This document shows positions 17,053 to 27,920 of a stretch of 40,455 nucleotides of DNA, one piece after another. The DNA comes from Bacteriovorax stolpii (GTDB lineage Bacteria > Bdellovibrionota > Bacteriovoracia > Bacteriovoracales > Bacteriovoracaceae), in assembly GCA_945905815.1 (NCBI GenBank), contig CAMDQH010000022.1, forward strand, positions 1 through 40,455, written 5' to 3'. Made by a program: the position numbers and the translations under genes. The notes below the pieces were generated by a model, which was given only the letters and a program-made list of their open reading frames with translations, did not search any database and had not been told where the DNA came from. Within the stretch, counting starts at the first letter, position 1; the number at the start of each line of letters is the position of its first letter.

Positions 17053-17238
17053 TTATATGGCTGTACCTTTCTTCAAATTACTCTGATTGCTCTTCTTTGA
17101 TAACTTCGCCAGCTTAGCAAGTTTCGAATTTTCTCTGGCTTGAGAAATCATCGGACATTCCGTATTAGACTGGCCTTCACCAAAAGCTGAGGCCGAGAAA
17201 AAAGAAGCCAAAATAGCAATCATCAATAAATGTTTCAT
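17053..17238 (-). CDS. Small secreted peptide, copy 1 (61 residues)
   Basis: A 61-residue precursor with a clear signal peptide (MKHLLMIAILASFFSASAFG), probably cut after AFG or before EGQ. The mature part is about 41 residues, with a single Cys in TECPMI and a strongly basic tail rich in Lys, Ser and Asn. It is a paralogue of the gene at 17403-17588: both share MKHLL-x-IAILASFFS-x-SAF-x-EGQ and TECPMI. A strong ribosome binding site, GGGGGAA, lies 5 bases before ATG. About 117 bp upstream is a dyad TGTCTA-N5-TAGACA, also found at the same distance from copy 2. I recognise no family. Options include a bacteriocin-like or predatory peptide, an envelope peptide or a pheromone; none is demonstrated. 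Confidence 0.8.
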   Translation of the reverse strand: MKHLLMIAILASFFSASAFGEGQSNTECPMISQARENSKLAKLAKLSKKSNQSNLKKGTAI

Positions 17239-17354
17239 AAATTCCCCCTATGAGTATTACTAATAGGTATTACAAGTTTGATGCCAATGATGGGTAAGAT
17301 AAGTGCTCTGAAGTTCGAAGATTGGTAGTGGTTAAGTGTAGGAAGTACAGACAC

Positions 17355-17371
17355 TGTCTAAAAAATAGACA
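17355..17371. promoter_or_regulatory. Operator-like dyad upstream of secreted peptide copy 1
   Basis: TGTCTA-N5-TAGACA, extended to CTGTCTA-N5-TAGACAG when one flanking base on each side is counted. A further half-site (CAGACA) lies immediately outside it. The centre is about 125 bp upstream of the copy 1 ATG. The same 6-5-6 dyad occurs at 17707-17723, at the matching distance from copy 2. It overlaps the T-tract of the terminator of copy 2, so part of the pattern might be explained by that hairpin. Confidence 0.55.
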
Positions 17372-17396
17372 GGGGAAGCGCTGGCCCTCCCCTGTT
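17360..17396 (-). terminator. Rho-independent terminator of secreted peptide copy 2
   Basis: Read on the minus strand, ACAGGGGA pairs with TCCCCTGT (8 bp, plus one G-U), with an 11-base loop, followed by CTATTTTTT. It lies a few bases after the copy 2 stop, so copy 2 and copy 1 are probably separate transcripts. Confidence 0.85.
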
Positions 17397-17402
17397 AAAT
17401 AA

Positions 17403-17588
17403 TTAAACTTTAAGACCTTTACTTGTATTGCTTCTAATGAGCTTCTTAGGAGATTTATCAAGATTAAGCTTCGCGTTCGCTTCTCTTGATGCTCTTATCA
17501 TCGGGCACTCTGTATCGGTCTGACCTTCAGCAAAAGCTGAAAAAGAAAAGAAAGAAGCCAAGATAGCAATAATTAGTAGATGTTTCAT
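17403..17588 (-). CDS. Small secreted peptide, copy 2 (61 residues)
   Basis: Paralogue of 17053-17238 with the same length and layout. The signal peptide MKHLLIIAILASFFSFSAFA has a good AxA-like cleavage site (AFA before EGQ). The mature peptide starts EGQTDTECPMI and ends in a basic, Ser/Lys/Asn-rich tail. The signal peptide and the first ~12 mature residues are well conserved between copies while the tails differ, a pattern of duplication followed by tail divergence. The ribosome binding site is GAGGGGGA. A promoter-like -35/-10 pair and the dyad lie about 100-135 bp upstream, and a terminator follows the stop, so it is a complete single-gene unit. Function unknown. Confidence 0.82.
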   Translation of the reverse strand: MKHLLIIAILASFFSFSAFAEGQTDTECPMIRASREANAKLNLDKSPKKLIRSNTSKGLKV

Positions 17589-17684
17589 AGATCCCCCTCG
17601 TAAGTTAGTTACATATTGTTATGCAACTGGCTTGCCACGTTTAGGGACGCGTAAGTAGCTAAAAAATCATTTCTGAGTGTTGAT

Positions 17685-17712
17685 ACTATAGACATTGTTT
17701 CATAGGTGTCTA
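17685..17712 (-). promoter_or_regulatory. Candidate promoter of secreted peptide copy 2
   Basis: On the minus strand, TAGACA (17712-17707, five of six matches to TTGACA) and TATAGT (17690-17685) are separated by 16 bases. The -35 element is one arm of the dyad at 17707-17723, so a protein bound there would compete with RNA polymerase. This implies a 5' leader of nearly 100 bases. Confidence 0.45.
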
Positions 17713-17723
17713 AAGTTTAGACA
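17707..17723. promoter_or_regulatory. Operator-like dyad upstream of secreted peptide copy 2
   Basis: A perfect 8-bp inverted repeat with one central base, TGTCTAAA-G-TTTAGACA. It contains the same TGTCTA-N5-TAGACA core as 17355-17371 and lies 119 bp upstream of the copy 2 ATG. A third half-site (TAGACA) occurs at 17688-17693. No T-tract follows, so it does not look like a terminator. Confidence 0.6.
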
Positions 17724-17794: not shown

Positions 17795-18016
17795 TTAAGC
17801 TCCGTGTGCTTTGCTAGAAGTGCCTTTCTTATTCTTCCCTTTTCTTGGCGTAGAAGCCTCACGCCTTTCAGCCTTCCTACTGACTCCAGGGCACATGGGC
17901 TTACTGCCACAAAGACCTGTATGGCAGCAGTCAATATTTGGAGAAGACACTTCCCCAAGAGCAAAGGAGTTAGTGCTTAATAAAGAGAATAAAGAGGCAA
18001 TGATAAGATATTTCAT
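17795..18016 (-). CDS. Secreted Cys-rich, Lys/Arg-rich small protein (73 residues)
   Basis: The precursor has a signal peptide (MKYLIIASLFSLLSTNSFA). The mature region has two parts: a Cys cluster (Cys30, 31, 36 and 42 in DCCHTGLCGSKPMCPG), then a highly basic tail with many Lys and Arg (for example STPRKGKNKKGTSSK). It shares the overall plan of the two 61-residue peptides further along the strand (signal peptide, Cys-Pro motif, basic tail) but is not closely similar in sequence. GGGAGAA precedes the ATG. It starts 13 bp after the RHS-protein stop and ends at a strong terminator, so it is probably co-expressed with the RHS gene and perhaps the pilus genes. Function unknown; the four Cys may form two disulfides or bind a metal. 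Confidence 0.78.
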   Translation of the reverse strand: MKYLIIASLFSLLSTNSFALGEVSSPNIDCCHTGLCGSKPMCPGVSRKAERREASTPRKGKNKKGTSSKAHGA

Positions 18017-18029
18017 AAATTCTCCCGAA

Positions 18030-19658
18030 TTAAATGTTTAAGTTCACGCCTGCTGGCTTAACGATTGATAACAAATTCTGGAAAGCTTGGGTCACTTGCA
18101 ATGCCATTTTGTGGCCAGCACTCGACTCCACTTTCTTAATCTCTCCGTAGTTATCGTAAGCTACGTTAATTTTCCCAATTTTTTCCATTTCAATTTCCAC
18201 TGGTTTTCCAAGGGCATTATATTTAAATGCTAGAACACGCCTTTGAGTTGCAGACTCTTGATCAACCATCTTAGAGATTTTACCTTTAGAATCATAAATC
18301 AAGAAAACCACTTTACCTGCATTATTAGAAGCTTTAACAAGATTACCTTTGGCATCATACTCAAACTGAGTTGTACCATCGTTGTTTACAACTTTCTTAA
18401 TTTTGTTAATTGTATCGTCGTACTCAATATTAACGAAATCACCTTTAGTCGAAGTCTTTTTAGACAACAATCCATTTTTATTGTATTCAAAATTTGTAAC
18501 ATGATTAGCGCGGGCAATCTTCACAGGCAAAGAATTGTCGTTATAGATTGTCTCTGTCTTGATACCATTGATTTCGGTCACAATACGATATGTATACTGA
18601 GCACCATCTGATTTCGCCTTAATTTCATATTCATAACGATTCGCGACCGGCTTACCATCGAATCCTGGTTTAGTTACAATTGTCCAGTAGTGGTTTTCTT
18701 GATTTTTTGGATTTGAACCATATTTATAATCAGTTTTCTCACCATTTCTATCGGTAATTTGAGACACAAAAAATGTTTGTGGGTCATAGCTTACTGATAG
18801 TTTAGTTTTATCTGAATAACCGATTCCTGTTAAGTTATGTGACTTATCAAAAGTATATTCATAGTTATTGTCGCCAACGTCTTTTGAAGAAACTAAGTCC
18901 TCGTCCTGAAACTTAAAAGTAGCTTTTTTGTCACCAGCTGACCAAATTTCCTTAACTAGTCCATCCGGGTACCAAGCAAAAAAGATTTGCTTTGCCTGAG
19001 AGTCTTTAAGTGACTCAAGCTTGCCTTCTTTATAAGTAAAGCCCACGAAGTATCCAGACTTGTCAGCAATTTTTACCATCTGACCATCATTATTGAAAAA
19101 GTCTTGTCTACCATCTGAATGATCACGACGGTAACCTTCTTTAGTTACATTTAAAGTCTGTGGCCCAAGATCATGTGAATAAAGTACTGTTCCAGGGGCA
19201 ATGGTTGCCTGAACTCCAAAATTCATTGCATAGGTGTGTCTTAGCTCAGCGTTTTCAGCAAGCTTCTTAATAAGGTCGCTTGTCGCTTTTTCAGAAAGTG
19301 CCGTTTTCTTTTTCATCTCATTCACAATTTTTGTGGAAGCTGCAATCGGATCAATCGCAGTTTTTGGCGTAAATCTAGTTTTAGCACCAACTCCATGCTC
19401 TTGAATAACGATGGATCCATCAGCCGAAGCCTCTAGTCTGGTTTCAAATTCACTACCCCATCCAAAACCAAACCAACCAACCTCAGTTGATTTTGAATTG
19501 TAGGTTCTCGTGATCTCTAATTTTTTACCACCGCCAGGAACAACAATGTCCGTGTAGGAGATATAGAAATTTCCGTTCTTTAAATTTACACCCGCCAGAG
19601 CAAACGAGCCCATGGTTAGAGTTAAAATAGCCAGAAAAAACATTCTAAATAGCTTCAT
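18030..19658 (-). CDS. Exported RHS/YD-repeat protein
   Basis: 542 residues with a signal peptide (FRMFFLAILTLTMGSFALA). The mature N-terminus matches the start of RHS-type proteins (GNFYISYTDIVVPGGG, then ITRTYNSKS and WFGFGWGSEFETRL, the DUF6531-like entry domain). The body holds degenerate YD repeats such as YRRDHSDGRQDFFN, YTFDKSHNLTGIGY, FEYNKNGLLSKK and FEYDAKGNLVKA. RHS proteins form beta-cocoons, often around a C-terminal toxin. Here the chain ends soon after the last repeats without the RHS core consensus or an added toxin domain, so it is short for the family. It lies 55 bp downstream of tadB/C on the same strand, with no terminator between, and is followed by the Cys-rich peptide. 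A cell-surface or pilus-associated role is an inference from position. Confidence 0.85.
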   Translation of the reverse strand: MKLFRMFFLAILTLTMGSFALAGVNLKNGNFYISYTDIVVPGGGKKLEITRTYNSKSTEVGWFGFGWGSEFETRLEASADGSIVIQEHGVGAKTRFTPKTAIDPIAASTKIVNEMKKKTALSEKATSDLIKKLAENAELRHTYAMNFGVQATIAPGTVLYSHDLGPQTLNVTKEGYRRDHSDGRQDFFNNDGQMVKIADKSGYFVGFTYKEGKLESLKDSQAKQIFFAWYPDGLVKEIWSAGDKKATFKFQDEDLVSSKDVGDNNYEYTFDKSHNLTGIGYSDKTKLSVSYDPQTFFVSQITDRNGEKTDYKYGSNPKNQENHYWTIVTKPGFDGKPVANRYEYEIKAKSDGAQYTYRIVTEINGIKTETIYNDNSLPVKIARANHVTNFEYNKNGLLSKKTSTKGDFVNIEYDDTINKIKKVVNNDGTTQFEYDAKGNLVKASNNAGKVVFLIYDSKGKISKMVDQESATQRRVLAFKYNALGKPVEIEMEKIGKINVAYDNYGEIKKVESSAGHKMALQVTQAFQNLLSIVKPAGVNLNI

Positions 19659-19713: not shown

Positions 19714-20682
19714 TCAAACTTTAATATCAATAATCTTCAAAATAATAAACATTCCGAGGGCAACCATCCCACAAATGACTAACAATGCTACAATCCCTAA
19801 GACTGTTCCAAATAGCAGAGGAAAATAATCAGGATCTCCACTGCCAAACATGATAATCATCATGAAAGGCATACAGCCAATGATATAGGCCTGAATTTTA
19901 CCTGAAGCAATGTATGTATCAATTTTCAACTGAAGTCTGAGGCGTTCTCGAATAACCAATGTGATAGTGTCAAAAACTTCGGCAAGATTACCACCGGTTT
20001 CGCGTAAAATACTTACACTCGTTACAAACATCTCATTATCTTCGGTGTAAACACGATTTTTAAGATTTTCCAGCGCCTCATCTAAAGGGACTCCAATTTT
20101 TGCTTGCTGAAGAACAAGATTAAATTCCTGGCTCACCGGCGGAGGTAATTCATCAACGACCATACCAATTGCTTGGGGCATAGTTAGTCCAGCGCGAATG
20201 CCGTTTCCGAGAAGATTCAGAGCATCTACCATCTGAAGCGCATATTTCTTTTTTCTTTTTTCTTCAAAATAATCAATCGCCGGCCGAGGAATTTTCCATC
20301 CACCAATAGTGGCAGCAATTCCTGCAACAACACCCAAAGCCGTTTTTCCTATTATTGCGAGAGCGCAGAAGACAAAAGCTCCAGATCCCAAAGAAATTAT
20401 CATTAGTCCCCATGTTACTTTTTTGGGATCAACTTCAATAAAAAGAATTTCAAATTTCTTAAGAAGATATTCTCTAGTACCTGATGTTTGCTCCTCTACC
20501 CAAGCAAATATCTTGATACTATTAACATAACAAAAGATAAAAAAACCAAGTCCAATTACTGCCAGAACTCCAGTTTTACCAAGGACATCAAGCATAAAAT
20601 TAACTTCACGTTTCTGTTTTATTGCCTGAGCAAATACAATATTTGAGAAAAGTAATGGCAAGATAAAGAATAATTTATTCAT
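19714..20682 (-). CDS. tadB: Flp pilus inner-membrane platform protein (TadB/TadC type)
   Basis: 322 residues with several transmembrane helices and one type II secretion system F domain (about 150-290), including the typical cytoplasmic helical stretch ALQMVDALNLLGNGIRAGLT, then AIGMVVDELPPP and VTSVSILRETGGNLAEVF. It is the platform on which the pilus ATPase acts. Tad systems normally carry two such proteins, TadB and TadC; only one is present in this locus, so the symbol is approximate. The N-terminus has an extra signal-like segment (FFILPLLFSNIVFAQA). The start lies 2 bp after the stop of the fused ATPase gene; an internal Met at codon 30 is an alternative. Confidence 0.88.
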   Translation of the reverse strand: MNKLFFILPLLFSNIVFAQAIKQKREVNFMLDVLGKTGVLAVIGLGFFIFCYVNSIKIFAWVEEQTSGTREYLLKKFEILFIEVDPKKVTWGLMIISLGSGAFVFCALAIIGKTALGVVAGIAATIGGWKIPRPAIDYFEEKRKKKYALQMVDALNLLGNGIRAGLTMPQAIGMVVDELPPPVSQEFNLVLQQAKIGVPLDEALENLKNRVYTEDNEMFVTSVSILRETGGNLAEVFDTITLVIRERLRLQLKIDTYIASGKIQAYIIGCMPFMMIIMFGSGDPDYFPLLFGTVLGIVALLVICGMVALGMFIILKIIDIKV

Positions 20683-20684
20683 GG

Positions 20685-22790
20685 CTAACCATTGTTAAAT
20701 AGTCCCCGAGGCACTTTATAACCTTTTGCTTCTAACTTCTCGATGAACTTGGGAATAAAACCACTGGCCATAAATTTACCAATAATTTTTCCGTCTTTAC
20801 CCATACCTTCTTGCTTAAAGGTGAAAATATCCTGCAATGTTATGACTTCACCTTGCATACCACCAATCTCAGTAATATATAGAACCTTTCTTGAACCATC
20901 ATCAAGACGTGACTGTTGAATAATCATATGAACTGCAGAGGCAATCATTTCTTTAATAGCTTTTTGGGGTAAACCAACTCCGGCATATTGAACGAGCGTT
21001 TCAAGTCGCGAGATCGCATCTCGTGGAGTATTGGAGTGAACAGTAGTCATTGATCCATCATGTCCAGTGTTCATCGCTTGTAACATATCTAACGTTTCTC
21101 CACCTCGACACTCACCAACAACAATTCTATCAGGACGCATTCGTAGAGTTTGTTTCACAAGACATCGAATATCAATCGCACCATCACCTTCAAGAGAAGG
21201 AGGCCGTGTTTCAAGACGAACTACGTGATCTTGCGGAAAATTTAATTCTGCAGAATCTTCGCATGTAATAATTCGTTCATTGGCCTGAATAAATCCACCC
21301 AACATATTAATTAAAGTTGTCTTACCTGACCCTGTACCACCAGAAACAACCATATTTCTGTGGGCTTCAACAGAAATACGCAAAAAATCCGCCATTCCTT
21401 CTGTCATTGAACCCCATTTAACAAGGTCCTTATAATCAAGTCTTTTATCCGGAAACTTACGAATGGTAATAACACACCCATCGATTGCACAGGGTGGAAT
21501 AATTGCATGCACACGCGAACCATCTGCAAGACGTGCATCTACATAAGGGGTTTTCTCATCAATTCTTCGACCAATGGGTGCAACGATACGTTCAATTACA
21601 TTCATAACCTGTCGATCATTGGTAAAAGTCACTTCTGATTTTCTGACTTTACCTTTTTGCTCAAAGTAAATTTTCTTTGGGCCCACAACCATAATCTCTG
21701 AAATTGTTTTATCTGCGAGCATATCTTCTAGAGGTCCAAGCCCAAGTGCTTCATCTAAAATTTCTTTTACGATTCTATTCATATCCTCGCGAGTGCCAAG
21801 CACGTTTTTGGTTTCTTCTTTACCAAGAAGTTCCACTACCATTTTTTTTGTTTGTTCACGCAAAATTATTTTGGCTTTGGGATCGTTATCGTCCTGTTTT
21901 TTAAGATCCATCTCTTCGACTAGAGATTTATGAACTCGACTTTTAAGCTCGGTCCACATGTCTCTTTTTTTATCATCCGAAGGACCTTCCTTTGAAGCTC
22001 CCGCAGCTGCTGCACCTACGTCCTGAGGTTTAGCTATTTTCTCTAAGGTTTTTAAAACATTTTTTTGAACAAGCTTACGAACACAATCGGTTACACCTGA
22101 TGAGAATGGACCTTTTCCGCCTACCATTACAGGGACCGAACGCGAGAGGGCCGCAATACAACTCGCATCATCACGAGGTATGGCATGAAAAACGGGTTTA
22201 CCTATTTGTTTCCCGATAACATCCGGAGAAACAGGATGACCATTAACCGCCTGATTTACCAAGATCTGAATCATATCTTTTGGAAAAAGCATTGTTACCA
22301 GATCAGTATACATTCTTTTAGATTGATTGACCGCTAAAAGGTCTGGTGAAACGACAATAAAAATAAGAGTCGAAAATTCAAGTGCCTTTAATGTTAGTGG
22401 AGTAAGGTCGCAGCCCCCATCTATTATTATCACCGGGTAAAGATTGGTCATTGCCTTAAGTACTTTGCCTAGACCTTCTTCGTTAACTTGAGTTGCAGCA
22501 ATCGGTTCTGTTGGCATCCCAATAAAGGAAACTCCTGCTTTATGATCAGTTGTAAATAACTGAATAGATCTTGGATCTATCGCTCCAGCAAATTCAGAAA
22601 GTTCTTTAAGATTTTTTTTAGATTTCAAACCCGTAATAATATTTTGATCGCCGCATGCCTTTTGATCAAAATCAAGTAGAAGTGTTTTGGCCCTGATCTC
22701 GGCAGCATAAGCAAAAGCAAGGTTTGCCGCAACCTGCGACTTACCAACTCCACCCTTACCACCAATTATTGTAATAATATTTCCGGCCAT
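20685..22790 (-). CDS. tadA: Fused CpaE/TadZ-like ATPase and CpaF/TadA pilus secretion ATPase
   Basis: 701 residues in one frame. Residues 1 to ~255 form a MinD/ParA-type ATPase: deviant Walker A GGKGGVGKS (10-18), LLLDFDQKACGDQN and IIIDGGCDLTPLTL. This is the usual CpaE/TadZ localisation factor. A linker rich in Ala, Gly, Lys and Asp (DVGAAAAGASKEGPSDDKKR) follows. From ~290 to the end is a complete CpaF/TadA: LGLGPLEDMLADKTISEIMV, ADGSRVHAIIPPCA, Walker A GGTGSGKT (484-491), Walker B-region MRPDRIVVGECRGGETLDML and the His box MTTVHSNTPRDAISRLE. I start at the ATG at 22790, one base after the secretin stop; a frame starting 15 codons earlier overlaps the secretin. The two proteins are normally separate genes. 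The sequence reads straight through without any sign of a frameshift. Confidence 0.93.
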   Translation of the reverse strand: MAGNIITIIGGKGGVGKSQVAANLAFAYAAEIRAKTLLLDFDQKACGDQNIITGLKSKKNLKELSEFAGAIDPRSIQLFTTDHKAGVSFIGMPTEPIAATQVNEEGLGKVLKAMTNLYPVIIIDGGCDLTPLTLKALEFSTLIFIVVSPDLLAVNQSKRMYTDLVTMLFPKDMIQILVNQAVNGHPVSPDVIGKQIGKPVFHAIPRDDASCIAALSRSVPVMVGGKGPFSSGVTDCVRKLVQKNVLKTLEKIAKPQDVGAAAAGASKEGPSDDKKRDMWTELKSRVHKSLVEEMDLKKQDDNDPKAKIILREQTKKMVVELLGKEETKNVLGTREDMNRIVKEILDEALGLGPLEDMLADKTISEIMVVGPKKIYFEQKGKVRKSEVTFTNDRQVMNVIERIVAPIGRRIDEKTPYVDARLADGSRVHAIIPPCAIDGCVITIRKFPDKRLDYKDLVKWGSMTEGMADFLRISVEAHRNMVVSGGTGSGKTTLINMLGGFIQANERIITCEDSAELNFPQDHVVRLETRPPSLEGDGAIDIRCLVKQTLRMRPDRIVVGECRGGETLDMLQAMNTGHDGSMTTVHSNTPRDAISRLETLVQYAGVGLPQKAIKEMIASAVHMIIQQSRLDDGSRKVLYITEIGGMQGEVITLQDIFTFKQEGMGKDGKIIGKFMASGFIPKFIEKLEAKGYKVPRGLFNNG

Positions 22791-22791
22791 A

Positions 22792-24300
22792 CTATTCTCG
22801 TCTCCTGAATTTTTTTCTAATTTCTTCCGTCCCAACCGAGGCAGATTCTATAATTTCGGGAGTTACAAATACAACATACTGGCTTTTAGTCGTTGAATAG
22901 TTTTTAGATCTTAAAAGTCTGAATAATGGAGTTGCAGGAGTTCCTTGCCCTGTTGTTGCTGATGAAGGAGCAGGATCAGTTTTATCATATTCAGTACTAG
23001 ATTGATTTTGGACCACACCACCAATTGCTGCCGATTCTTTTGATTTAATTACAAGATTAGTGTTAATCGTGTTGGTCGTCGTGATTTGAGCATCGTTACC
23101 AATCGCAAGGCTCACTTTAAGATTAAGTGCTAATTCAATTTTTTCTTGCTCAAGAATTTTAGGCGTAACTTCCATCGTTAAGCCAACGTTTGAAGATGTT
23201 GCTTTTGTGAAGTCACCAGTACCAACTGCAAATGGAGTATTAGTGGTCTTGTCCACTGTGGCCGGTTTTGTATCGCGAGTGATAACCATTCCTGATTGTA
23301 TTATGCGCGCATACCCTGCACTTTTAGCCGCATTTAATTTTGGAAAAAGACCCGAGATAGTAGCACTCAATGTTCCAGAGGAAGTTGATGTCACATTGCC
23401 CGATTTTGTCTGACCAAAACTTATTCCACTGTTATCTTCACCCATTAGCGGGGCCCATTTGAAGGCAAATACCTTTCCGTAATTTTTTGCTAATTCCACA
23501 AACTGTGCAGTAATTTTCACCATTTTTGGTGCAGGTTGCGGTTCTTTTTTTTCATTTATAGCAATGAAGTCAATGATTGCTGGCTTATCCGAAGCGGAAA
23601 ATCGATCATCTTTAGTTGATAGTGAGGCAATTTGTGGTGGAAGATAAGCAGTGGCGATACTCATGGCCAAAGTTTTTTTACCTTCAGATCCCACAACTCC
23701 TTCCAACCAATATGTTTTATTAACGATTCTAACACTTACATCTTTTAAATTATTTCGAGCAAGTTCATCGCTCATTTTTCTAGCTATTACTCGCTGAGTT
23801 TGAGGACTTAATTCAATAATTGATAACACTTCGGCGTAGCTTGCAAGAACTTTGGAAACACGTCCAATATCTTCTGGGACAACAATCTCACCCGACACGA
23901 CAATTTTTCCACCCTTGATCCCAATATCGAGGCCTTCAACATCACCAATGAGTTCACGTAATTCTGCTACTTTCGCTGATGTTCCGGTCGCCGTGATAAC
24001 TACAGTATATCTAAGACGAACATCCCCTAGATTATCTCTAATTGTGACAGTCGTTTTTCCAGGCTTCATGCCTTTAAATACGATTTCTTTTTTTTGAGGC
24101 ACGAGCGTAAGTTTAAGTAAATTATCGGCGCCGAAAACTATTTTAGGATTATATTCAAAATCAATTTTTTCAATAACATCTATTCCCATCGCCACTTCTA
24201 ATTCTTTTTCAATGATGGGTGCAACTGCTGCATCCTGAGCTAAAGTAATCCCAGTTAAACAAAATGAAAGAAAAATAAGGCTAAGGAATTTAACGACCAC
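22792..24300 (-). CDS. cpaC: Flp pilus outer-membrane secretin
   Basis: 503 residues with a signal peptide (VKFLSLIFLSFCLTGITLAQ). The N-terminal half has the pilus-assembly domain (VFKGMKPGKTTVTIRDNLGD) and BON-like repeats (LDIGIKGGKIVVSGEIVVPE, VRIVNKTYWLEGVVGSEG). The C-terminal half is the secretin beta-barrel domain, from VKITAQFVELAKNYGKVFAF through MVITRDTKPATVDK and ESAAIGGVVQNQSS to YVVFVTPEIIE. It forms the outer-membrane channel for the Flp pilus. I assign GTG at 24300 as the start: AAGGGG is upstream and the signal peptide follows at once. An ATG-initiated frame 28 codons longer lies wholly inside cpaB and would spoil the signal peptide. It overlaps cpaB by 11 bp. Confidence 0.93.
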   Translation of the reverse strand: MVVKFLSLIFLSFCLTGITLAQDAAVAPIIEKELEVAMGIDVIEKIDFEYNPKIVFGADNLLKLTLVPQKKEIVFKGMKPGKTTVTIRDNLGDVRLRYTVVITATGTSAKVAELRELIGDVEGLDIGIKGGKIVVSGEIVVPEDIGRVSKVLASYAEVLSIIELSPQTQRVIARKMSDELARNNLKDVSVRIVNKTYWLEGVVGSEGKKTLAMSIATAYLPPQIASLSTKDDRFSASDKPAIIDFIAINEKKEPQPAPKMVKITAQFVELAKNYGKVFAFKWAPLMGEDNSGISFGQTKSGNVTSTSSGTLSATISGLFPKLNAAKSAGYARIIQSGMVITRDTKPATVDKTTNTPFAVGTGDFTKATSSNVGLTMEVTPKILEQEKIELALNLKVSLAIGNDAQITTTNTINTNLVIKSKESAAIGGVVQNQSSTEYDKTDPAPSSATTGQGTPATPLFRLLRSKNYSTTKSQYVVFVTPEIIESASVGTEEIRKKFRRRE

Positions 24301-25123
24301 CAGGCGGCCCCTTACGGTTTGCTTGATCTGCCTGATTCGCAAAGTATGTCTTTGCTTCGGCGGCATCTTCGTCCAATACATCAAAAAGCCTTGTAGCCTT
24401 TATCCTCTCAATAATTTTGTCGTCGTTATTTCGAAGTGAAAGATAAATCCCATTTCCGGCCGACATCATGAAAACCATTTTCTGAACTTCAAAAGGGGTA
24501 AGCTCTAGAGTAATTGTATTATAATTTGTATAGCTGTTTAGCTTTACCTGACGTGTTGAATCGTTTGGACCACCGATATTCACGATAGGAATTGAGTTGG
24601 TAACAAATAGACCGGTTGAAAGAATTAAAACATCCTGAAGAACAGTTTTCACTTTTATTTTTTCTTTTTTTCCAGCGGCATAATCTACAAGTGCAAGTAC
24701 ATCAATTCGATCACCTGGCTTTAATAAACGACTCACTGACTGACCTTCAGTTACCTGAATCGAAAGAGCTCTTTTACCAATAGAAACTTGTCTCGATAAT
24801 CCAGACTGAGCTCCAGGATAAGTAACTCTGGGGGAAGTAATTTGTTCCCCTGCTTTTATGGGTACTGCTGCGATTGTGTTATAAAGTTCCTCAACACTTT
24901 TAAAGTGTCCTGGCATCTGAAATGATTTAGGAATGTTTTTCAGCTGAACTTTTCGATCATCAATAATTTCAAGTTCTTTGATATCTTCTTTCGCTACAAC
25001 AACTGGTGTTGAGTCACCGTACTCACTAATGAGCTCGGTTTCACGACTTGAAATATAAGACAAAACCATCATTACTGCTAATGCAGCAAGGATAAGACTC
25101 GTTGTAAACGCCTTGGTATTCAT
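24290..25123 (-). CDS. cpaB: Flp pilus assembly protein CpaB/RcpC
   Basis: 277 residues. An N-terminal membrane helix (SLILAALAVMMVLSYIS) precedes a SAF domain (VVVAKEDIKELEIIDDRKVQ, then IPKSFQMPGHF and AVPIKAGEQI) and the RcpC domain (RALSIQVTEGQSVSRLLKPG, DRIDVLALVDY and TLELTPFEVQKMVFM). In other Tad systems it is periplasmic and works with the secretin. AGGAA precedes the ATG. It comes after an 84-bp gap without a gene and overlaps the secretin start, which makes cpaB-cpaC-tadZA-tadB a tight block. Confidence 0.92.
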   Translation of the reverse strand: MNTKAFTTSLILAALAVMMVLSYISSRETELISEYGDSTPVVVAKEDIKELEIIDDRKVQLKNIPKSFQMPGHFKSVEELYNTIAAVPIKAGEQITSPRVTYPGAQSGLSRQVSIGKRALSIQVTEGQSVSRLLKPGDRIDVLALVDYAAGKKEKIKVKTVLQDVLILSTGLFVTNSIPIVNIGGPNDSTRQVKLNSYTNYNTITLELTPFEVQKMVFMMSAGNGIYLSLRNNDDKIIERIKATRLFDVLDEDAAEAKTYFANQADQANRKGPPGGR

Positions 25124-25207
25124 TGTTCTTCCTAAACTTTGATCGAAGTTTCGATAACTTAATCATAGCAGAAATTTCAATGCGAGGAGTAGAAAATGAA
25201 ATATTGC

Positions 25208-25720
25208 CTATTGGATTGTGCAACTTCCACGGCTAACAAGTGCTGAAAAATCCCCACCAGGGTAGTCAGGTACTGGATTAACCACTGTTCCGTTTCCAAT
25301 GTAAGTGGCACCGCAAACACCATAAACTGTTTGAACACGAATAAGCATTGTTGCAGGCTGAGTATACTCATCACTACAAGGCGGATCACTTGGGCTTGAA
25401 GCTATGGGAACTGTTAAACGATAACAAGGAGCAACTGGTTTACCACTCTCCTCATCTCCCGTTTTAAAATAATCCTTCCAACCAATAAAAAACATCCCGA
25501 ACTGAGTCCAAGGCTTATATGTCATTGCCTTGTCTGGTTTAGGAATAGTTGAGTTATTTTGAACCCTATAATAGAAATAGGCCCGGGTTACTTTTTGCTG
25601 ATTGATTGAAGCATTGATGGCATTCGCAAAGCCTGAAATCATCGAATAAAACATAAACATCAATGGCAAAAATATAATAAGTTCAATCAGGGCCTGGCCC
25701 TTTTGGTTATTTTTCCTCAT
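25208..25720 (-). CDS. TadE-like minor pilin / pseudopilin
   Basis: 170 residues. It begins MRKNNQKGQALIELIIFLPL, the TadE-type start with a short basic leader, a Gly before the presumed prepilin-peptidase site, Glu at +5 and a hydrophobic helix. The remaining ~135 residues are polar and aromatic, with four Cys in the C-terminal half that may form disulfides in the periplasm. The ATG at 25720 overlaps the upstream stop as TAATG; a TTG two codons earlier is a less likely start. It probably acts as a minor component of the Flp pilus with the neighbouring pilin-like genes. Confidence 0.82.
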   Translation of the reverse strand: MRKNNQKGQALIELIIFLPLMFMFYSMISGFANAINASINQQKVTRAYFYYRVQNNSTIPKPDKAMTYKPWTQFGMFFIGWKDYFKTGDEESGKPVAPCYRLTVPIASSPSDPPCSDEYTQPATMLIRVQTVYGVCGATYIGNGTVVNPVPDYPGGDFSALVSRGSCTIQ

Positions 25721-26247
25721 TAGCAACCATCGTCATAAAGAGTAATATCCATTGAATTAGTACAAATGTCTTCGCCCGAGATCGCTTTACAAACTCGACT
25801 AGCACAAACTCCACGCGTTGGTTCCCGGCCAAGAAAAGATTCGGAGATAAGCTCTAATTCTGTCTGGCCAGTCACTCGGCCTATGACATCCATTTTTCTC
25901 GTGAATGTGGCATAAGTCCCTACCATCAGATATTTTCCAGCATCAAGATTTAGTTCATCATTATGATTTATACCAAAGACAGCATTAATTCCAAAAACTT
26001 CTAATTTAAAATCTTTGAAAGTATTTTCAGCTTCGGCAAAGGCTTGAGTTCTACTTCCCGGGCCCCATGCTGTTTGATTTGAATCCTGAGTCAAATAAAC
26101 ACGGCTGGCCATATAAGTCGCGTAGTGAGTGACATAGCCAGAGGTATAATTCATGGATGTGGTGAAAACGAGAAGGATCAGACTAACTGCAAAAATAAAA
26201 CTAAAAATGAATTCAATGGTCGATTGACCTTTTTGATTATTTTTCAT
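25720..26247 (-). CDS. TadE-like minor pilin / pseudopilin
   Basis: 175 residues starting MKNNQKGQSTIEFIFSFIFA, again a basic leader, Gly, Glu at +5 and a hydrophobic helix, as in TadE/TadF. The body is polar, with several Cys near the C-terminus (RGVCASRVCKAISGEDIC and the terminal DDGC). It is a likely partner of the adjacent TadE-like protein, with which it shares the NNQKGQ leader. Start and stop overlap both neighbours (ATGA and TAATG), so translation is coupled. Confidence 0.82.
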   Translation of the reverse strand: MKNNQKGQSTIEFIFSFIFAVSLILLVFTTSMNYTSGYVTHYATYMASRVYLTQDSNQTAWGPGSRTQAFAEAENTFKDFKLEVFGINAVFGINHNDELNLDAGKYLMVGTYATFTRKMDVIGRVTGQTELELISESFLGREPTRGVCASRVCKAISGEDICTNSMDITLYDDGC

Positions 26248-26549
26248 TGATAGGGATCACTTGGACCAAAAAAATGCGTCTGTGTTTTTGAGGCATTATA
26301 ATAGGAAGCATGATCCTGAGCGGTGGCTTTTGGTGAATTACCTTCTGGTGTAGTTCCCCGACCAGTCATTGAAGCGTGCCGGTACCCCCACTCTGCCTCA
26401 ACCTTATAAACTCGACCAATTTCTCCATTGTCACCGAAATATTTTTGGAAGGTGGCACTTTTATAAAAGGTGGTAACTAAGGAAACGGCCACTGATAAAA
26501 GGAGAATATATTCGACGACCGTCTGGCCACGTTGGTTTTTTATTTCCAC
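26244..26549 (-). CDS. Flp-type pilin-like protein
   Basis: 101 residues from GTG at 26549: leader MEIKNQRG, then QTVVEYILLLSVAVSLVTTF, the class III (Flp) prepilin signature with the Gly-Gln cleavage site and conserved Glu-Tyr. The C-terminal ~60 residues are polar, longer than in a normal Flp pilin (50-70 residues in all), so it may be a minor or tip subunit. GGAG lies 7 bases before the GTG; the ATG-initiated frame 8 codons longer overlaps the peptidase gene further and lengthens the leader oddly. It overlaps the prepilin peptidase gene by 10 bp. Confidence 0.82.
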   Translation of the reverse strand: MEIKNQRGQTVVEYILLLSVAVSLVTTFYKSATFQKYFGDNGEIGRVYKVEAEWGYRHASMTGRGTTPEGNSPKATAQDHASYYNASKTQTHFFGPSDPYQ

Positions 26550-27034
26550 TGTTCCACTCCAAGCAAAATCCATGCGAGCAAAACGACTGGCGCAAAACTG
26601 AAGTTTGAGCGAATGCTGTCTTTAAATCCCTGCCAATACATACTTAAAGCATAGGCCTTAATATTTTTAAAGTCCTTGGCAATTTTAAAAGATAACATAC
26701 AAAGACCGACTATAAGAGTTGAGTAAAGCACCTTCTCAAACATCCCTGCGTGCTGCTCTAGAGGAACCAGAAGAAATAGTGAAGCTAGAAACTTACTATC
26801 ACCAGCGCCCATTATTTTAAGAACAAACAGTATAAAACCAACAACTATCCATCCTATTGGAAAAATTAAACTCGCCCATTCCCAATGATAAACAACAGGG
26901 TAGAAGAAGTGGAAGAACAATCCTAAGAACAAATTGATTATGAACCAGAAGTTTGAAATTTTTTTGGTTTTAATATCGATCCAAGACACGATAGCTAACT
27001 CTGATAAAACAAGGAAATATATCCAGACTATCAT
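26540..27034 (-). CDS. cpaA: Prepilin peptidase CpaA/TadV
   Basis: 164 residues, five to six transmembrane helices, A24 family of aspartyl prepilin peptidases. The two catalytic Asp are Asp20 in VSWIDIKTKKISN and Asp79 in GAGDSKFL (G-x-G-D motif). It cleaves the Flp-type leaders of the pilin-like proteins around it, on the cytoplasmic side of the inner membrane. There is no N-methyltransferase domain, as usual for TadV. Start overlaps the upstream stop as ATGA. Confidence 0.92.
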   Translation of the reverse strand: MIVWIYFLVLSELAIVSWIDIKTKKISNFWFIINLFLGLFFHFFYPVVYHWEWASLIFPIGWIVVGFILFVLKIMGAGDSKFLASLFLLVPLEQHAGMFEKVLYSTLIVGLCMLSFKIAKDFKNIKAYALSMYWQGFKDSIRSNFSFAPVVLLAWILLGVEQWK

Positions 27035-27633: not shown

Positions 27634-27714
27634 GACTGTATTTATTGTGACCACAAGTTAGACAGGTGCCAACTATTGTTGAAATTGCCTATAACTGCCA
27701 ATTAGAAAATGCGA

Positions 27715-27720: not shown

Positions 27721-27726
27721 AACTAT

Positions 27727-27920
27727 GGGTCCGGGACGAAGCTATAAAGTTTCGCCCCTACGATTTTTTTTTCGGGAGCGGTCCCTGGTCACGGTGTGCA
27801 AGCTTGCCTGGTTTAGTATTAAGCCAGAATGTGAGAAGCCTAAAGTGATTACTAATTGCGCCCACCTAGTTTTCTAGGGGGACGAAACCGTTTTAAAGTC
27901 TTCTGTCCCGGACCTCTTTT
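27727..27920 (+). ncRNA. ssrS: 6S RNA
   Basis: About 190 bases that fold as one long, interrupted hairpin around a central bubble, as 6S RNA does. GGTCCGGGAC (27728-27737) pairs perfectly with GTCCCGGACC (27905-27914). GAAG then pairs with CTTC across a bulge, GTTTCG (27749-27754) with CGAAAC (27883-27888), and CCCCTA with TAGGGG. The tip is a hairpin CTGGTTTA (27808-27815)/TAAGCCAG (27820-27827). The 3' side carries GAGAAGCCTAAA, close to the GAGAAGCCTTAAA of E. coli 6S. The alternative small hairpin CCTAG-TTTT-CTAGG sits where E. coli 6S has its release hairpin. 6S RNA mimics an open promoter and sequesters sigma-70 RNA polymerase. Exact ends are estimated. Confidence 0.87.

Follow-up and report, generated by a model that had tools for sequence, protein, structure and literature searches.

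What is the function of a DNA dyad that occurs twice, at almost the same distance, in front of two similar genes for short exported peptides? The question is raised by a window of 40,455 nucleotides (the whole stretch of DNA that was analysed) from Bacteriovorax stolpii. An earlier interpretation made from the letters alone, called the sequence-only reading here, had proposed one regulator that controls a family of exported cationic peptides. The genes concerned are these:

17053..17238, minus strand: secreted peptide copy 1, 61 aa, with signal peptide and TECPMI motif
17403..17588, minus strand: secreted peptide copy 2, 61 aa, with signal peptide and TECPMI motif
17795..18016, minus strand: third secreted peptide of the cluster, 73 aa, Cys-rich, with a basic tail
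18030..19658, minus strand: secreted RHS/YD-repeat protein (DUF6531, RHS_repeat), upstream of the peptide cluster

The open reading frames and their translations agree with the earlier description of two 61-residue precursors with near-identical signal peptides, the TECPMI motif and diverged basic tails; the common signal peptide can be written as MKHLL(M/I)IAILASFFS(A/F)SAF(G/A)EGQ. Across relatives the signal peptide of the TECPMI peptides is conserved, as are a Thr and a Cys, which are invariant; the rest of the sequence varies. A Pfam search with these peptides returned no family at E<=1, known peptide and bacteriocin families included, which is consistent with the earlier remark that they belong to no described family. 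An envelope or a prey-directed role would be plausible.

The gene order in the window is RHS protein, Cys-rich peptide, copy 2 and copy 1, and the three-peptide part of this cluster is found again in the genus. The third peptide, which contains CCHTGLCGSKPMCPG, has no dyad of its own and starts 13 bp past the end of the RHS gene; it is kept in the genus. Next to the peptide cluster is the RHS/YD-repeat protein, which has 542 aa and carries a signal peptide; no toxin tail is apparent in it. The RHS gene is in turn adjoined by a probable tad/Flp pilus locus (19714-27034), which includes an ATPase fused to an N-terminal ParA/MinD-like domain, a secretin-like protein and a prepilin-peptidase-like protein. 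Near the flagellin genes there is a 6S RNA (27725-27918, RF00013, 55.6 bits), and just upstream of it, at 27648, a weak match to the dyad with 2 mismatches, which is at chance level.

Between the dyad and the start codon of each copy lies a predicted sigma-54 promoter of the -24/-12 type, which the sequence-only reading had overlooked. The elements upstream of the two peptide genes are:

17355..17371, no strand: putative upstream activating dyad of copy 1, TGTCTA-N5-TAGACA, 68 bp to the -24 element
17337..17353, no strand: putative degenerate second activator site of copy 1, minus strand TGTCTGTACTTCCTACA, about 50 bp to the -24 element
17271..17286, minus strand: predicted sigma-54 -24/-12 promoter of copy 1, TGGCATCAAACTTGTA, 32 bp to the ATG
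17707..17723, no strand: putative upstream activating dyad of copy 2, perfect 8+1+8 palindrome, 69 bp to the -24 element
17678..17694, no strand: putative degenerate second activator site of copy 2, 2 mismatches, 40 bp to the -24 element
17622..17637, minus strand: predicted sigma-54 -24/-12 promoter of copy 2, TGGCAAGCCAGTTGCA, 33 bp to the ATG

The dyad of copy 2 reads TGTCTAAA-G-TTTAGACA, so the perfect 8+8 palindrome reported before is confirmed. We count 116 bp (copy 1) and 118 bp (copy 2) between dyad and ATG; the earlier values of 117 and 119 bp differ from ours only in the way of counting. The -24/-12 element of copy 2 is the only site that scores at least 18 on either strand of the 40-kb window, and that of copy 1 is kept in orthologues. 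On the other hand, the -35 box that had been predicted to overlap the dyad of copy 2 did not hold up: sigma-70 elements at the dyads score no better than in shuffled sequence, and the promoter is instead the -24/-12 element at 17622-17637. Since the promoter is of the sigma-54 type, the dyad would not be an operator at a -35 box; it would be the site of an activator, with 68-69 bp between it and the -24 element downstream. The additional outer half-site noted before is indeed present at both copies, where it is a degenerate second site that is conserved in related peptide promoters; as a general feature of the dyad it fails, because outer half-sites are not enriched at dyads. At copy 2 the second site lies 40 bp from the promoter and the main site 69 bp, so that the two are in phase.

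When the peptide promoters of 13 species are compared, four blocks stand out as best kept: the dyad, its degenerate second site, the -24/-12 element and the site for ribosome binding. At both copies these blocks are retained, the dyad with 0-4 mismatches and the -24/-12 element as TGGCA...TTG, and little else is. A full or degenerate dyad precedes every TECPMI copy that was tested, nearly always with a clear -24/-12 element. The dyad is conserved upstream of orthologues throughout the genus, often in degenerate form, and the earlier suggestion that a whole regulated unit (dyad, promoter and peptide) was duplicated is supported. Because both promoters are conserved over the 13 species, the duplication is older than the present species, and both units apparently remain under the same control.

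Is the dyad specific for these peptides? We searched the genome (3.01 Mb in 141 contigs) and found 7 exact TGTCTA-N5-TAGACA sites and none for the backwards pattern; with up to one mismatch the numbers are 18 and 11. Nearly all of the 18 sites are followed, about 60-150 bp downstream, by a gene whose product begins with a signal peptide, and 2 of them sit between divergent exported genes. The genes behind them code for a subtilase, a 5'-nucleotidase-like protein, lipoproteins and many unnamed proteins. Among 58 related genomes, exact dyads are present in nearly all members of the family Bacteriovoracaceae, with control counts close to zero.

To describe the site more generally, we collected exact dyads from the genome and its relatives, 150 distinct ones in all, and used random positions in the same loci as controls. 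The dyad statistics come from pattern searches and extracted sequence stretches, and signal peptides and sigma-54 elements were scored with simple schemes devised for this analysis. For 126 of the 150 dyads (84%) an open reading frame with a signal peptide starts within 25-220 bp on one side, compared with 15% in the control. The 147 dyad-linked proteins fall into about 96 unrelated families, so that the link to export does not come from one gene family counted many times. A literature search for the exact hexamers of the dyad gave unrelated papers only.

The same set shows what lies between the dyads and their genes. Using the consensus TGGCAC-N5-TTGCW and a score of at least 16 as the threshold for a strong element, we found a -24/-12 element within 20-150 bp of 88 of the 150 exact dyads (59%), copies 1 and 2 likewise having theirs, and at 3.4% of random positions, which is a 17-fold enrichment. 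The offsets from the edge of the dyad to the TGG of the -24 element are clustered at 37-41, 47-51, 57-60, 68-72 and 88 bp, with peaks at about 40, 49, 58.5 and 69 bp and gaps between them. This phasing gives a Rayleigh R of 0.71 at a period near 9.8 bp (null maximum 0.44), and R is again 0.71 if only one value is taken for each of 31 protein families, with 0 of 20,000 nulls as large. In the genome itself, 12 of the 18 dyads with up to one mismatch have phased sigma-54 elements, at offsets of 39, 41, 47, 57, 58, 59, 68, 68, 69, 69, 69 and 70 bp. Genomes that had not been used before gave offsets at 40-41, 46-52, 56-60 and 67-70 bp (R = 0.51). The combined pattern TGTC-N9-GACA-N40-70-TGGC-N7-TTGC occurs in 152 of 291 Bdellovibrionota genomes, with 3 control hits overall.

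Such phasing is expected if a protein bound to the dyad must face a protein bound to the promoter, as a bacterial enhancer-binding protein (bEBP) faces the sigma-54 polymerase, and the dyads are placed as one expects of a dyadic upstream activating sequence (UAS), at about 70-150 bp upstream and on a constant helical face. We know of no other reason for it. The dyad, the promoter, the phasing, the signal peptides and the conservation are established from sequence statistics; that an activator binds the dyads and activates from there is what we infer. Taken together, the link to signal peptides, the sigma-54 elements, the phasing and the phylum-wide pattern argue that the dyad is the UAS of a sigma-54 activator and not a peptide-specific operator. 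We are confident that it is very probably the UAS of a bEBP whose regulon consists of Sec-exported proteins and lipoproteins, both TECPMI peptides included. The activator would bind TGTCTA-N5-TAGACA about 75-105 bp upstream of the transcription start, contact the sigma-54 RNA polymerase at the -24/-12 promoter by looping of the DNA on one helical face, and open the promoter by ATP hydrolysis, at genes for Sec-exported proteins and lipoproteins that would include those of both peptides. The genome presumably encodes rpoN, to judge from its GAFTGA bEBPs and the -24/-12 promoters.

These results also bear on two quite different explanations. A dedicated regulator for exported cationic peptides, as in the sequence-only reading, would explain the dyad and the -24/-12 element in front of the TECPMI copies, but the peptides make up only 7 of the 147 dyad-linked proteins in 96 families, and the dyad is also found in families and genera without a detectable TECPMI peptide. 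We reject a peptide-specific regulon, which is contradicted by the genome-wide targets and has hardly any probability left. What stands of the earlier proposal is that a whole unit was duplicated and that one regulator is likely; the targets, however, are in their great majority not TECPMI peptides. In the other explanation a conventional regulator, be it a repressor or an activator, uses the dyad as its operator at sigma-70 promoters, and the sigma-54 elements are a coincidence. It could account for the roughly 40% of dyads that have no -24/-12 element and lie nearer to the start codon (median 85 bp vs 108 bp for those with the element). Against it, sigma-70 scores are at or below the shuffled background in both classes of dyads, and an enriched and phased element is difficult to call a coincidence. 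We have therefore rejected sigma-70 promoters of the -35/-10 type at the dyad, and we regard this explanation as improbable.

Most of the exact dyads without a sigma-54 element still precede genes with signal peptides, and gene families tend to retain their class of dyad, with or without the element, across species. A search for a substitute promoter element at these dyads, by k-mers, by GG-N10-G positions and by base composition, brought up no clear candidate. The activator may act differently at these dyads, or they may be sites of another regulator. In one genome (G003; loci L116, L117 and L120-L126) exported genes are preceded by many extended palindromes, gagTGTCTAGAAACTAGACActc being one example; these palindromes lack any sigma-54 element and form a second class of dyad sites.

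Which protein could be the activator? The genome encodes 6 bEBPs with a GAFTGA or GSFTGA loop and 3 without, so that a bEBP with an AAA+ domain, a GAFTGA loop and an HTH is available, although its cognate status is inferred. The candidate is an NtrC-type response regulator with GAFTGA (L313:3224-4726), encoded in an operon (L313:1305-5977) behind a CHASE2 histidine kinase and followed by lspA and lgt. This order is kept in most of the Bacteriovoracaceae, and among four family members the HTH of the candidate shows no variation over about 35 residues. The operon itself would couple signal transduction to lipoprotein maturation.

The assignment was reached by elimination among bEBP types in a few lineages. 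Four reduced genomes that have the combined pattern (G031, G262, G216 and G285) share only three bEBP types, namely those of L313, L135 and L138. In G123, which is 99% complete and has neither dyads nor patterns, the L135 and L138 types are present and the L313 type is absent; the latter is the only canonical GAFTGA activator that is found in all four reduced genomes yet not in G123. In the families f2 and f9 the HTH of the candidate was not found, and the dyad and the pattern are missing too. On the other hand, G033, G034 and G143 keep the candidate regulator and have no exact dyad, and in family f6, which has the regulator, the dyad is barely enriched (46 vs 27 in the control). A phylogenetic profile of the regulator over the phylum (Mann-Whitney p = 0.002 outside the Bacteriovoracaceae) is suggestive only, as it is not corrected for kinship, which confounds it. 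On balance, the response regulator of L313 seems to us the most likely activator. It is less probable, though a possibility to be taken seriously, that another bEBP uses the same sites by the same mechanism, for example that of the L135 type, which is universal and has a well conserved HTH, or that of the L138 type, which all four reduced genomes share. However, both occur in G123 as well, the L135 type occurs also in an f2 genome without dyads and pattern, and the L136 and L137 types are absent from genomes with the pattern.

With the L313 regulator as the probable activator, the system appears to work like an NtrC-type regulon: there is a 17-bp dyad upstream of a -24/-12 promoter and an AAA+ activator with GAFTGA and a Fis-type HTH. 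It differs in the sequence of the site and in a regulon of mostly exported proteins from many unrelated families. The nearest known site is that of GlrR/QseF (GlrK-GlrR, QseE-QseG-QseF) of the Enterobacteriaceae, given as TGTC(N)10GACA (PMC4987338) or alternatively as TGTN12ACA (PMC6075780); the spacer of the former is one base longer than in the TGTC-N9-GACA enriched here. Both systems combine a response-regulator bEBP with sigma-54 promoters and have an envelope theme, which in GlrR/QseF involves glmY, rpoE and the lipoprotein QseG. On the other hand, the kinase of our candidate has CHASE2 and shares an operon with lspA/lgt, and the targets are many exported-protein genes instead of glmY and rpoE. 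Against the NCBIfam equivalog of GlrR (NF011695) the candidate scores 369 bits, far below the cut-off of 763, and this score together with the N9 spacing rules out that it is GlrR. The Rrp2-RpoN system of Borrelia is similar in that a sigma-54 activator is tied to lipoproteins and surface proteins (PMC3037356). In Borrelia RpoN is reported to activate rpoS directly, and rpoS controls the lipoproteins, whereas here each exported gene would have its own dyad and sigma-54 promoter. Control of the bacterial exterior by sigma-54 is already a published theme (PMC3162934); a text search of that paper found no mention of Bdellovibrio.

What does this mean for these bacteria? To our knowledge, little is known about the control of export in Bdellovibrio-like predators, and our literature searches found no description of a site-defined regulon of exported proteins in Bdellovibrionota. 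The result is a concrete proposed regulon, in which a single DNA site and a single type of promoter are shared by dozens of exported-protein families and a two-component system is named as the candidate regulator. With the dyad, new members of the regulon can be predicted in any Bdellovibrionota genome, and there is a first point of access to unnamed exported proteins such as the TECPMI peptides. Since the probable regulator is encoded together with lspA and lgt, a signal from the envelope or from export would adjust the exported proteins. We tentatively suggest, at somewhat less than even chances, that the lspA/lgt-linked two-component system senses the load on envelope or export and sets a large part of the exported proteins through sigma-54. 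If this is true, it would be a dedicated switch of the secretome across a phylum with known bacterial predators, and a new family of short exported peptides would be part of it.
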